A stretch of DNA of 64,000 nucleotides from Halapricum salinum (GTDB lineage: Archaea; Halobacteriota; Halobacteria; Halobacteriales; Haloarculaceae), in contig NZ_CP031310.1 in the NCBI RefSeq assembly GCF_004799665.1, forward strand, positions 2,100,887 to 2,164,886. The letters are read 5' to 3'. The notes below the pieces were generated by a model that worked only from the letters and a program-made list of their open reading frames with translations, made no database searches and had not been told where the DNA came from. Below are positions 24,705 through 46,660 of the stretch, one piece after another. The first letter of the stretch is position 1; every line of letters begins with the position of its first letter. Made by a program: the position numbers and the translations under genes.

Positions 24705-25571
24705 ATGAGCGGCGACGAACGCAAGATCCTCGATTCGGCAGGCGATGTCTGTTACGTGGTACGTAACGGCGAGTCCGTCGCCAGCCCCGAGTGGACCTCC
24801 TGTCGACTCATCCTGACGAACAGACGACTCCTCGTCGCCGAGAACGGTTCGAAACAGACCATCCCCCACGCCAAGGTGACCATCCCCCGGGGAGAGTCGC
24901 CCGTCCCCGAGGACGTCGACACGACCGGCGCGGTGACACTCAGGTTCGGCAATGCGGTCCTCGTGGTGGCCGCGACCGACGTCGACGATTTCGTCGACAC
25001 CTACTGCCGGGCGAACCTCGGCGGCGGCGTCATCCTCGCGAAACACCCGGCGATCGTCGGCGGCGTCGTCCAGGACGAGGCCTCGTGGTCGAAAGCCCGC
25101 TTCGCCATCGAAGACGGCCTGTTCACGCTGCAGTTTCCCGACGGCGACAGCATGGCCTGTGAACTCGACGACGTCGGGACGATCGAGGAGCGCAGCGGCG
25201 AGGTCATGGGCGAGCACCGCGACGTCGTCGCCATCGAGCACACCGACGAGGAGGGTCGCAGCATGGAGACCCACCTCTCGGGCAACGCTCGCCACACCAC
25301 CGTGCTGGCGACGCTGTTCGAGCACATCGTCCAGTCGCGCGAGGACGACTACGAACTCTCCGAGGCAGAGAGTCAGGTCCTGATGGCGCTCTACTCGGGC
25401 GTCTCGCCGTTCGAGATGGCCGACTTCGTGGGGCTGAGCGTCGACGAGGTCGAGGAGATCTACCAGCACTTGCTCGAAGTCGGGGCTGTAGACGAGGTGC
25501 GGACACGGACCGAGGTGACGCTGAACGCCCAGGGGCGGAACATGGCGAGCGAAGCGATGAGTGAGAAGTAG
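24705..25571 (+). CDS. cheF: Archaeal taxis protein CheF (paralog 1)
   Basis: 288 residues. CheF proteins link the bacterial-type Che system (CheY, CheC/D) to the archaellum motor. The protein has the CheF-type beta-rich N-terminal two thirds (a conserved WTSCRLILTNRRLLV strand pair) and a C-terminal winged helix with MALYSGVSPFEMADFVGLSVDEVEEIYQHL. That block is closely matched by the second paralog at 45797-46660. No che or arl genes are in the window. The last 75 bp are duplicated about 270 bp downstream with only synonymous changes. Confidence 0.85.
   Translation: MSGDERKILDSAGDVCYVVRNGESVASPEWTSCRLILTNRRLLVAENGSKQTIPHAKVTIPRGESPVPEDVDTTGAVTLRFGNAVLVVAATDVDDFVDTYCRANLGGGVILAKHPAIVGGVVQDEASWSKARFAIEDGLFTLQFPDGDSMACELDDVGTIEERSGEVMGEHRDVVAIEHTDEEGRSMETHLSGNARHTTVLATLFEHIVQSREDDYELSEAESQVLMALYSGVSPFEMADFVGLSVDEVEEIYQHLLEVGAVDEVRTRTEVTLNAQGRNMASEAMSEK
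25492..25566. repeat. 3'-end repeat of cheF, proximal copy
   Basis: 75 bp at the end of cheF, matching 25762-25836 with four mismatches, all synonymous in the cheF frame (V, T, R and N codons). The copies lie in direct orientation around a 195-bp hairpin-rich insert. Confidence 0.9.
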
Positions 25572-25580
25572 GTCTGGCAT

Positions 25581-25599
25581 ACGCCGCCGAAGGCGGCGT
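25581..25599 (+). terminator. Terminator-like hairpin directly after cheF
   Basis: Perfect 8-bp stem ACGCCGCC / GGCGGCGT with a GAA loop, 10 bp past the stop codon, followed by TTTC. Confidence 0.5.
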
Positions 25600-25603
25600 T
25601 TCA

Positions 25604-25700
25604 CCGGACGCGAGCAGTGCGCGGTTCCGAACCTGTGAGGAACCGCGAAAGCGAACGGCGTAGCCGTGAGCAGGGAGCGTCCGGCTCGTTTTTCCCCAAG
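25604..25700 (+). ncRNA. Possible structured RNA: three-way-junction fold plus T-rich end
   Basis: An outer 8-bp stem (CCGGACGC 25604-25611 with GCGTCCGG 25677-25684) encloses two perfect hairpins: CGCGGTTCC/GGAACCGCG (25620-25628 with 25639-25647, 10-nt loop) and ACGGC/GCCGT (25655-25659 with 25663-25667, 3-nt loop). It is followed by CTCGTTTTTCCCC, a T-run of the archaeal terminator kind. It lacks tRNA arm geometry. It could equally be a DNA-level repeat (REP or MITE remnant); no expression evidence is possible here. Confidence 0.35.
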
Positions 25701-25753
25701 TTTTTACGACGAGTGGTGGCCGAACTACGTGAGGCCACCCGAGGAAGTAAAAA
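25701..25753. repeat. Long imperfect inverted repeat inside the cheF insert
   Basis: TTTTTAC (25701-25707) pairs with GTAAAAA (25747-25753), and inside it GGTGGCC (25715-25721) pairs with GGCCACC (25733-25739). Internal loops are 7 nt on both sides. The apical loop GAAC...GTGA resembles the loop of the hairpin at 25620-25647, so the two structures may be related repeat units. Confidence 0.55.
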
Positions 25754-25761
25754 GTGGTTGC

Positions 25762-25850
25762 ACGAGGTCCGGACGCGAACCGAGGTGACGCTGAACGCCC
25801 AGGGGCGGAATATGGCGAGCGAAGCGATGAGTGAGATAGCGAGACTCTGA
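25762..25850 (+). pseudogene. Detached second copy of the cheF 3' end
   Basis: Encodes EVRTRTEVTLNAQGRN...SEIARL and a TGA. The first 25 residues are the same as the end of intact CheF, but the terminal residues differ (SEIARL versus SEK). It has no start of its own; an apparent frame back to 25617 runs through the hairpin block and is not gene-like. Because the only base changes in the shared part are synonymous, it probably descends from a working cheF end. Confidence 0.8.
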
Positions 25851-25868
25851 CCGAAGGGAAGAGTCTCG
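25840..25868 (+). terminator. Hairpin spanning the stop of the detached cheF end
   Basis: Perfect 9-bp stem CGAGACTCT / AGAGTCTCG with an 11-nt loop containing the stop codon. It looks like the original cheF terminator, now separated from the intact gene. Confidence 0.5.
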
Positions 25869-25883
25869 AACCGGACGCCCGAA

Positions 25884-27977
25884 TCAGTTCGGCGGCGTGT
25901 CGGACTCGCCGGGGACGCCGCGGCCCTGGTAGAAGTCCCCGGCCCACTGGCCGATCCAGATGTCCTGGTTGGCGAGATAGAGTGCGCCTTCGGTGTCGAA
26001 CGAATCGTCGGTGACCGACCACTCGTCGGCCGTCGTGTCGTACTCGATCTCGGCGTTGTAGACGGCGGCCTGGCCGTGCTCGCCGCCCGCCGCGGGCGGG
26101 AGCGGCAGCGTGTACTCGGCGCTCTCGTCGCGTGATTGTGGTCGCTCGGCGCGCTGGAGGCGGCCGCGGTTGAACGTCTGGTTGAAGTACCGGGCGTAGA
26201 TGTCCCTGACGTCCATGTCGAGGACGGCGTCGGCGGCGTTGATCCCGCCGGTGACGTCGCCGGCGTCCCGGGCCGTGATCGTGTAGACGTCGTCGTCGGT
26301 CCCGGTCGCGAACGTTCCTGCTTGCTCGTCCCAGAGCTCGTCGATCATGTAGCCGAGGACGTCGCTGGCGAGTGGTTCGCGGTCGACGCCGTCGAGTTGG
26401 CCGGCCCACAGCAGGCCCTGGCCGACGATCCCCTGGGTCGCGGCCTGGTTGGCCGCGCCGTCGGCGACGCGGCCGTCGCCCTCGACGTGGGTCGCGAGTT
26501 CGTCGGCCAGCGCGTTGGCGTAGTCTGCGGCGCTCTCCGTGGCTTCCTCGCTACCGGCCTGGGTGCCGTAGTAGCCGATCGCGGCCAGCATGAGCCCGAC
26601 CGACCGGGTCGACTCCATCTCGACGATCTCCGCGGGCGTAAAGAAGTTCATCGTCGCCTCGGCGACGCCGTCGGCGATCTCCTGAATCCCGATGTCCATA
26701 TCGAAGACGCCGTCAGCGCCGGCCTCCTTCGGAATGAGCGGGCGGGGGTTGACGTAGCCGAACCAGCCGTTCTGGGCGAGGCTGGTGATGTCCGAGAGGA
26801 ACCAGACCATCGCGGCGTGGTGGTGCGGTCGGCGCGTCTCGTCTTCGATCTGCCCTTCGGCTGGCCGATACTCCGAGAGGAACTCGAAGGAGTCGCCATG
26901 GGTGAGCGCGCCGTTGCCGCGGGAGCCGCCGACGAGGATCGCGGCGTTGATCCCGACCTGTGCGAGCGTCGTGAGCAACTGCGCGCGGAACTTCGCGGCG
27001 ATCTCGGCCGGCAGGGTCTCGAAGTGCGTCTCGAAGTTCTTCGCCCAGGTGACGCCCTTGAGGTGCGTCCAGGCCAGCGACGAGGGGCTGACGACGCCAG
27101 AGGAGTTCGATTTGTCCCACGCGAGCGTCGTCCCGTCGGGCCGCCCGGTGTCGTCTTCGAGCACCGGCTGCTGGGTAAAACTCGGGTCGCCCTCGGTGAA
27201 CGCCGCGAACGTCAGGTTGGGCTGGTTGATCGGCGGCCGGTCGGTGTCGGCGGCCTCCAGCATCGCGGGCATGCGCTGGGACTGTAGCTCCTCCATCTGC
27301 TCGTTGAGCGGGAACGGAACCCCGTTGCCGCTCATCGCGATGTTCGTGCTCATGTTGTACAGCGAGTACCAGTACGAATCCCAGGTGGCGTCCTCCCAGC
27401 CGTAGTCGCTGGTGTCGCCGTCGTCGGTGTCGTCCGCCTCGCTGCCCTCGCCAACGACGACGACGCCTTTCATCCCGGACTGTCGATGTGGGTTGCAGTA
27501 GTACTTGACCGTCGCGTCGTCCTCGAAAGTCTGTTCGAAGGTGTTGCCGGCGTCGCCCGTCGGGTCGCCGCTCCGGAAGTCCATGTTCTCGCCGACGACG
27601 TTGTGTACGCCGCCGTCGCCCGTCCACTCCCAGACGACCGTCGTCCCGGGGTCGACAGTGACGACTGGCGGTGCGAAGCCAAACGAACCGCCGTTGGCCG
27701 ACGCGCCGACGTCGATGGTGACCTGGCTCTCGCCAGTCGCGTCGACGACCGTCCCGTCGAAGTTGTCCGTGCCATCGAGCCAGCCGTCGAACGACGCCGT
27801 CCCGTCGCCATTTCCGTTGCCGTTTCCGTTCCCGCTGTCGGTGGTCGTGGTGGTGTCACCGTTGCTGTTCCCGTTTCCATTGCCGTTGCCGTTTCCGCCG
27901 GTGGACGAACAGCCAGCGATCGCGGCGAGCGCGGCTGCGCCACTGAGGTGGAGGAATCGTCGTCTGTTTTGTTGCAT
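25884..27977 (-). CDS. Halocyanin-domain lipoprotein fused to a large unknown domain
   Basis: 697 residues. Twin-arginine signal (RRRFLHL) and lipobox (AIAGC) lead into a low-complexity Asn/Gly/Thr linker (about 26-60). A blue-copper halocyanin domain follows (about 60-180): His in GDGGVHNVV, then Cys, His and Met in YYCNPHRQSGMKG. The remaining 500 residues are a helical domain with TTLAQVGINAAILVGGSRGNGALTHGDSFEF, a PHHHAAMVWFLSD cluster, and a regular repeat-like pattern (ADYANALADELATH, NQAATQGIVGQGLLWAGQLDG). I do not recognise its family. Exported and anchored outside, it could couple an extracellular oxidation to the copper centre (inference). Halocyanins are normally about 150 residues. 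Confidence 0.85.
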   Translation of the reverse strand: MQQNRRRFLHLSGAAALAAIAGCSSTGGNGNGNGNGNSNGDTTTTTDSGNGNGNGNGDGTASFDGWLDGTDNFDGTVVDATGESQVTIDVGASANGGSFGFAPPVVTVDPGTTVVWEWTGDGGVHNVVGENMDFRSGDPTGDAGNTFEQTFEDDATVKYYCNPHRQSGMKGVVVVGEGSEADDTDDGDTSDYGWEDATWDSYWYSLYNMSTNIAMSGNGVPFPLNEQMEELQSQRMPAMLEAADTDRPPINQPNLTFAAFTEGDPSFTQQPVLEDDTGRPDGTTLAWDKSNSSGVVSPSSLAWTHLKGVTWAKNFETHFETLPAEIAAKFRAQLLTTLAQVGINAAILVGGSRGNGALTHGDSFEFLSEYRPAEGQIEDETRRPHHHAAMVWFLSDITSLAQNGWFGYVNPRPLIPKEAGADGVFDMDIGIQEIADGVAEATMNFFTPAEIVEMESTRSVGLMLAAIGYYGTQAGSEEATESAADYANALADELATHVEGDGRVADGAANQAATQGIVGQGLLWAGQLDGVDREPLASDVLGYMIDELWDEQAGTFATGTDDDVYTITARDAGDVTGGINAADAVLDMDVRDIYARYFNQTFNRGRLQRAERPQSRDESAEYTLPLPPAAGGEHGQAAVYNAEIEYDTTADEWSVTDDSFDTEGALYLANQDIWIGQWAGDFYQGRGVPGESDTPPN

Positions 27978-45796: not shown

Positions 45797-46660
45797 ATGA
45801 GCGAGGGCGAAACCAAACTCTACGACGATCGCGGGCAGTATCTCCTGGCCCAGAAAGACGGCCGGGAGATCCGCGACGCCAGCTGGAACGCCTGTCGGGT
45901 GGTCCTGACCACCCAGCGGGTCGTGATGATCGCCGACGAGAAGCACACGGTGGCGATCGACGCCCTCGAACAGGTCAACGATCGTTTCGACGTCAACCAG
46001 GCCGCCGCTGGCGAGGGCAGCTACACTGCCGTTCGGACCGACGAGACGGTCTATCTGGTCTCGGTGCCCGAGCAGGACGAGTTCGAGACGGCGCTGTACA
46101 AGGCCTCGCTGAACAACGGTATTCTGTTCGTCCAGCACCCGGCCGTCGAGGGCGGGGTCGTCCAGAGCGTCGAGTGGACCAAAGCCAAGGTCAAGATTTC
46201 GGCAGAAGCGATCAACCTCGCGATGGCCGACGGCCAGAAGGTGACGATCGACCGGAACGACATCGGCGACGTTGGCACCGACGAGCGCACGATCAAGGGC
46301 GAAGAGCGGACCGTCTACGAGGTCGAACACACCGACGCGGAGGGACGCAGCGTCGAGACTCACGTCACGGGCGAGTCCCACCACACCGCAGTTTTGGGGG
46401 CGCTTCTGGAGGAAGGCGTCGAGCGCCACCGTGCGAACCTCGATCTCAGCGGGACGGAAAAACAGGTCATCATGGCCCTCCACTCCGGTGTCTCGCCGTT
46501 CGACCTCCCCGAGTTCGTCGGGATGGACGTCGAGAAAGTCGAGGCGATCTTCGACGAACTCGTCGAGTACGACGTCATCGAGGTCGAGCGCGAACGCACC
46601 GAGGTCGCGCTCACGCCGCAGGGTCGACAGGCCGCCGGCGAGACGATCGGCGATCGGTAG
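45797..46660 (+). CDS. cheF: Archaeal taxis protein CheF (paralog 2)
   Basis: 287 residues from the ATG at 45797. Same domain layout as the 24705 paralog: TKLYDDRGQYLL, the strand pair WNACRVVLTTQRVVMI, ILFVQHPAVEGGVVQ (paralog ILAKHPAIVGGVVQ), and the C-terminal winged helix with MALHSGVSPFDLPEFVGMDVEKVEAIFDEL. Genomes of motile haloarchaea often carry two cheF genes beside each other in the che-arl region; here they are 20 kb apart and away from che genes in this window. Confidence 0.85.
   Translation: MSEGETKLYDDRGQYLLAQKDGREIRDASWNACRVVLTTQRVVMIADEKHTVAIDALEQVNDRFDVNQAAAGEGSYTAVRTDETVYLVSVPEQDEFETALYKASLNNGILFVQHPAVEGGVVQSVEWTKAKVKISAEAINLAMADGQKVTIDRNDIGDVGTDERTIKGEERTVYEVEHTDAEGRSVETHVTGESHHTAVLGALLEEGVERHRANLDLSGTEKQVIMALHSGVSPFDLPEFVGMDVEKVEAIFDELVEYDVIEVERERTEVALTPQGRQAAGETIGDR

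Follow-up and report, generated by a model that had tools for sequence, protein, structure and literature searches.

A dispersed terminator-like element behind cheF and other haloarchaeal genes, putatively mobile and associated with duplicated gene ends

The cheF gene of Halapricum salinum is followed by a second copy of its own 3' end, which raises the question of what lies between the two copies and how such an arrangement came about. The locus was analysed in a window of 64,000 nucleotides (the whole stretch of DNA under study, positions 2,100,887 to 2,164,886 of contig NZ_CP031310.1), taken from a genome that consists of a single contig of 3.45 Mb. The two copies form a direct repeat of 75 bp (window positions 25492-25566 and 25762-25836, spacing 270) with 71/75 identical positions (95%), and the four differences (GTG/GTC, ACA/ACG, CGG/CGA and AAC/AAT) are all synonymous, as an earlier note on this DNA had described. 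The 195 bp between the arms (25567-25761) are non-coding, and the note's view of an insert without a gene agrees with the lack of a Pfam match for the sole open reading frame that crosses it (25617-25850, 77 aa). This frame extends in phase beyond the element and into the distal cheF copy, and is probably not a gene. The insert is also as highly structured as had been proposed: its RNA fold has an energy of -88.7 kcal/mol, compared with -69.9 kcal/mol in dinucleotide shuffles (z -4.6), the DNA fold gives z -4.4, and the predicted structure has a multi-branched left part and a long right hairpin. An Rfam search of the cheF region returned matches at chance level only, with none above the gathering score. 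The element family to which the insert belongs is called E below, and the features of the locus are as follows.

24705-25571, plus strand: cheF, the intact host gene, 288 aa (PF04283 CheF-arch, E 4e-50; same end residue in relatives).
25492-25566, plus strand: proximal, functional copy of the cheF 3' end (direct repeat D1).
25577-25603, plus strand: left part of E, hairpin 1, GCATACGCCGCCGAAGGCGGCGTTTCA (fold; motif GCATACG...CGTTTCAC conserved in other copies).
25604-25684, plus strand: left part of E, branched hairpin 2, with stem CCGGACGC...GCGTCCGG (DNA and RNA folds).
25689-25705, plus strand: invariant core motif TTTTTCCCCAAGTTTTT (44 genome copies, reversed control 0; expected 0.03 per window).
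25689-25757, plus strand: E core hairpin, TTTTTCCCCAAG-TTTTT-stem-AAAAA-GTGG, with a covarying stem (covariation; covariance model hit 1.9e-19).
25749-25761, plus strand: fixed right end, AAAAAGTGG followed by TTGC; the minus strand reads CCACTTTTTAC.
25762-25836, plus strand: distal, displaced copy of the cheF 3' end, without a start and with a 2-nt deletion at the stop (D1).
25884-27977, minus strand: next gene, convergent, encoding a plastocyanin-like copper-binding protein (PF00127).

The full-length cheF gene ends with the proximal copy, and its product closes in SEK, where those of relatives close in SEK or SEQ. The distal copy is a headless, displaced remnant, whose SEIARL ending comes from the 2-nt deletion at the old stop codon. 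Thus the suggestion that the element had altered the C-terminus of CheF does not hold. Two more cheF-like 3' segments were seen, one in the window at 46490-46550 (G000:C1:2147376-2147436) and one at G000:C1:966120-966271 (79% and 74% identical, respectively); these are probably cheF paralogues.

Read from left to right, the cheF copy of E comprises 5 nt past the cheF stop, hairpin 1 (GCATACG...CGTTTCA), the branched hairpin 2, a T5C4 run at 25689, the core hairpin and the right end. Hairpin 2 holds two inner hairpins (25620-25647 and about 25651-25671), and in other copies a stem of different sequence is found at the same position. The right end (AAAAAGTGGTNNN) is constant across copies, whereas both left hairpins are variable or missing. 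In the core alignment, invariant feet (T5C4ANG...GTGG) flank a variable stem; about half of the core is invariant family-wide, which weakens any use of E-versus-gene identity as a sign of horizontal cassette transfer. Across 20 aligned copies 97.9% of stem cells pair, seven pairs show double changes, and 38 cells are double-changed compared with 11.7 in shuffles. The stem is therefore free in sequence and kept paired by compensatory changes. At L071, L081, L099, L102, L103 and L104 the right half of E carries an extra hairpin module (CTAGTGCGAGAGC...GCATACCATGCGAACGG...CGTGAGCAGAGAG), which suggests nested small insertions.

Partial matches to the cheF block number in the dozens in this genome, and all share TTTTTCCCCANGTTTTT, the stem and AAAAAGTGG. 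Genome copy numbers were taken from motif and pattern searches: with one mismatch allowed, they gave 44 occurrences of the 17-base motif of the TTTTTCCCCANGTTTTT-stem-AAAAAGTGG core, and a reversed-pattern control gave 0. Copy number ranges from 9 to 23 in the five genus-mates, and counts from draft genomes are low because repeats break short-read assemblies. Several contigs of the G004 assembly (e.g. C159, C191, C206, C251 and C259) begin or end at the TTTTTCCCC motif. A strict motif-stem-motif pattern was found in 72/391 genomes of the order, representing 21/87 genera (control 0), and the covariance search for further copies that the earlier note had called for detected E in 33/39 relatives, with up to 53 copies per genome. 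The viral contigs and plasmid records that were searched contain no copies. One 30-base pattern match (L160, JAUIFF010000011.1) comes from a contig assigned by binning to a Polyangia bacterium. No earlier description of E, or of the gene-end duplication that adjoins it, was found in the searchable literature (subscription papers being outside its scope). E is a real, order-wide family whose manner of placement at gene ends is unusual.

The T-run that had been noticed near 25690 is the T5C stretch at 25689-25694, a motif that does not vary across the family. In Haloferax volcanii such a stretch ends 95% of transcripts in vivo (PMC7237163), and by analogy the one at 25689-25694 is likely the cheF terminator. 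The minus-strand CCACTTTTTAC at the right end has the sequence of a likely terminator for the convergent transcript. With T5C following the upstream gene and CCACTTTTT immediately following the convergent one, termination in both directions is the most economical role, and E is regarded as a putative two-way transcription terminator.

Placement was examined in 188 copies of E with a readable right end, drawn from within the genus, from further genera and from named contigs. At about 47 loci (type A, to which the cheF copy belongs) 24-245 bp of the upstream gene's own 3' end are repeated past the right end, in most cases with 4-5 nt in between. At about 91 loci (type B) the right end is next to the stop codon of a convergently oriented gene, at a distance of 0-6 bp (mode 2-3 bp). 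In nearly all copies, the gene-end copy or the convergent stop begins 0-6 nt past GTGG, and in the placement tables hardly any copy has features of both types. About 50 of the 188 fall into neither class, some of them being contig ends or degenerate elements. Downstream gene-end copies accompany 23/139 genes adjoining E and 4/337 genes away from it (Fisher p 7e-10), so chance is excluded. Judging from C-terminal sequences, other type A hosts appear to include gyrA, ileS, hemE, elp3 and hisH. As these and many others are affected alike, cheF is not a dedicated target. Thus, of the earlier proposal of a structured RNA, a REP-like element or a mobile unit that uses cheF, what stands is a structured, dispersed, REP-like or mobile-looking element with many copies and a covarying stem. 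By eye, the C-termini of some type B neighbours (at L063, L069, L077 and L093, and the 499-aa neighbours) resemble EF-2, nucleoside diphosphate kinase and thermosome subunits. Next to many copies of E, among them L080, L094, L095 and L104 in G000 and many of type B, stands another dispersed repeat (CTTCCTGACCGCCCCGCGGTGGCCGGGAGCG...CGGGGAAGGGCAGGCCTGCTGTGCGG); some copies of E are inserted within it, with duplications of 24-31 bp.

The origin of the duplication can be read most directly at elp3, the only clean pair of filled and empty sites that was aligned. E is present in one species (G001) and absent from its sister species (G002); the two species have gene bodies of 96% identity and homologous downstream sequence, and the proximal and distal gene-end copies in G001 are identical. 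Here E was inserted with a gene-end duplication that left the gene intact. A second pair was tried, for the L124 gene, but its downstream sequence could not be aligned. The distal elp3 copy contains the motif TTTTTCCCCA, which could belong to an older element instead of being native target sequence. Elsewhere, copy identity at species-specific insertions is 100% of 70 bp at L117, 99% at L086, 97% at L064 and 95% at cheF. The length of the duplications, variable between 24 and 245 bp, does not fit a normal DNA transposase.

The later history of the copies is seen at seven genes that have the same E junction in two to five species. At these shared junctions, gene-end copies have a mean identity of 94% within genomes and 85% between species, with the higher value within genomes in 18/18 species pairs (p 8e-6; the pairs derive from the seven genes and are not independent). 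Therefore, the gene-end copies evolve in concert. Differences between proximal and distal copies are synonymous in 76/113 codons against 26% expected, and orthologues match the distal copy in 19 cases and the proximal copy in 15; both results fit concerted evolution. A decaying target duplication was rejected as the sole model for all loci, since too many of the differences are synonymous and orthologues agree equally well with either copy. Units of gene end plus E stand two or three in tandem at several loci, as unequal crossing-over would give. Gene conversion is efficient between genome copies in polyploid H. volcanii (PMC8223754, PMC11276520).

The gyrA ends are duplicated, in several versions, in 5/6 genus genomes. 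In G001 and G002 (L305 and L306; also L344 and L345), the E behind gyrA has the form TTTTTTCATCAACGG...AAAAAGGTTGA, with tandem units of gyrA end plus element, and its outer stem is changed on both sides, from CCAC/GTGG to TCAAC/GTTGA. A separate element family at gyrA was considered and rejected: among 194 genomes the pattern occurs only in G002, and the same element stands behind the G001 gyrA. It is best taken as a copy of E that diverged in situ, its outer stem carrying compensating changes. In G003, the two gyrA tails differ completely after 49 identical bases.

Several other origins were weighed against these data. It is possible, if rather unlikely, that alleles were juxtaposed, a foreign unit of gene end plus E having entered by one-sided homologous recombination and the end of E having been joined to the broken resident gene, so that the distal copy would be the resident end. 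Such an origin would account for copies that differ as alleles do, mostly at synonymous sites, for orthologues that match distal copies as well as proximal ones, for similarity that often stops at the stop codon, and for the wholly different gyrA tails in G003. However, the species-specific insertions at elp3 and L117 have identical copies, and concerted evolution explains the greater likeness within genomes at shared junctions without any import. Import of a foreign gene end is possible at some loci, such as the G003 gyrA, as in fungal mitochondrial gene hybrids (PMC3630166). Local tandem duplication, judged unlikely, would make the hairpin base of a terminator E a recurrent point of breakage or template switching, from which replication restarts upstream and duplicates the gene end together with E; the cheF-like pattern would then be a truncated second unit. 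Tandem units at L095, L110, L185, L191, L234 and L106 agree with this, as do a breakpoint always at the hairpin base combined with a variable one, and the different junctions of the VERTPVA gene in different species. Many loci, however, have no second E and a distal copy that ends exactly at the stop codon, and the elp3 sister species has no E at all, implying that E was gained together with the duplication.

That E is only a conserved native terminator evolving in place, its likeness between loci due to convergence or constraint, appears very improbable. The position behind stop codons and the T5C motif would be as expected, and the L099 gene has E beside its stop codon in 6/6 genus genomes, but an invariant 17-base motif and a 9-base right end flank a free stem in many copies (reversed control 0), presence of E differs between sister species, and the gene-end duplications are left unexplained. 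Applied to type B copies alone, this explanation could hold; their tight adjacency to convergent stop codons (0-6 bp) is not explained by insertion. Variable duplication lengths with a fixed right and a variable left end resemble target-primed insertion, and a gene 3' end with a template-like copy downstream recalls a diversity-generating retroelement (DGR). Nevertheless, a reverse-transcriptase process of either kind, be it a DGR or target-primed retroposition with long target duplications, is extremely improbable: a search for reverse transcriptase (RVT_1, PF00078) in the genome itself and 38 relatives found none, and the differences are synonymous rather than adenine-specific. With no RVT_1 in these 39 genomes, both models are largely refuted.

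The reading leaned towards here, with modest confidence, is that E is a putative non-autonomous mobile terminator-like element, whose insertion behind stop codons produces long target duplications and whose copies are kept alike by host recombination. E lies immediately behind stop codons; it would insert there with duplication of the gene end, so that the host gene survives. Factors acting in trans may join E to a pair of breaks that lie tens of bases from each other at the gene end, and filling of the gap between the breaks would duplicate the interval. Once in place, E would terminate transcription both ways, by T5C for the upstream gene and by CCACTTTTT for the convergent gene, and in polyploid cells the unit of gene end plus E may be homogenised, multiplied or cleanly excised through gene conversion and unequal crossing-over. 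A doubtful further possibility is that E, once formed, spreads without a transposase, the gene-end copies serving as homology arms: recombination would excise a circle of gene end plus E, leaving an intact gene, and the circle would re-insert in the same gene in other strains or species. E would then be a transcription terminator travelling with its own recombination arms of conserved coding sequence.

If the preferred reading of E as a mobile element is right, many haloarchaeal genes (gyrA, ileS, hemE, elp3, cheF and others) bear a mobile terminator module that copies the gene's own tail at insertion and so avoids damage to the host. Puzzling partial gene repeats in haloarchaeal genomes would be explained, and the family would offer a natural system for gene conversion in polyploid archaea and a tractable case of the spread of terminator sequences. 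It would also be a warning for annotation, as C-terminal gene fragments next to intact genes can be element scars rather than paralogues.

REP and REPIN sequences with RAYT transposases are short extragenic hairpins with conserved feet, often at gene 3' ends and in dozens of copies. E is likewise a short extragenic hairpin with a conserved foot sequence, but in the core alignment the foot is CCCCANG/GTGG and not GTAG, and E duplicates gene ends. Like archaeal MITEs (PMC10969869), E is short, non-coding, present in 44 copies and bounded by inverted-repeat ends (CCAC-TTTTT / AAAAA-GTGG); its outer stem, CCA(M)-G-TTTTT paired with AAAAA-GTGG, has the form of MITE terminal inverted repeats. Unlike in MITEs, the duplication is 24-245 bp and variable rather than short and fixed, and the stem sequence is free to change. 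The gene hybrids formed by mobile ORFs in fungal mitochondria (Glomus and Allomyces, PMC3630166) share with E an insert that follows a complete gene, the 3' end of which is repeated downstream. These encode homing endonucleases and bring in a foreign gene end, however, whereas E is non-coding, with no homing endonuclease or other coding region found by Pfam search of the cheF copy, and its young copies are identical. DGRs differ in that the 39 genomes have no PF00078 match and that all base classes are changed, mostly synonymously. The E core resembles haloarchaeal T-stretch terminators (T5C, PMC7237163), with T5C behind the gene and T5 behind the convergent gene, although dispersal as a repeat, invariant flanks and a covarying stem set E apart from ordinary T5C terminators. 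The SPRITE, RUP and BOX repeats of Streptococcus pneumoniae (PMC3049150; PMC10969869) are, like E, small, dispersed, non-coding palindromic intergenic repeats, and SPRITE is terminator-like; host and sequence differ, and long gene-end duplications are not among the features reported in the available portions of these sources. The E family is rated as belonging with such small dispersed terminator-like or palindromic elements.
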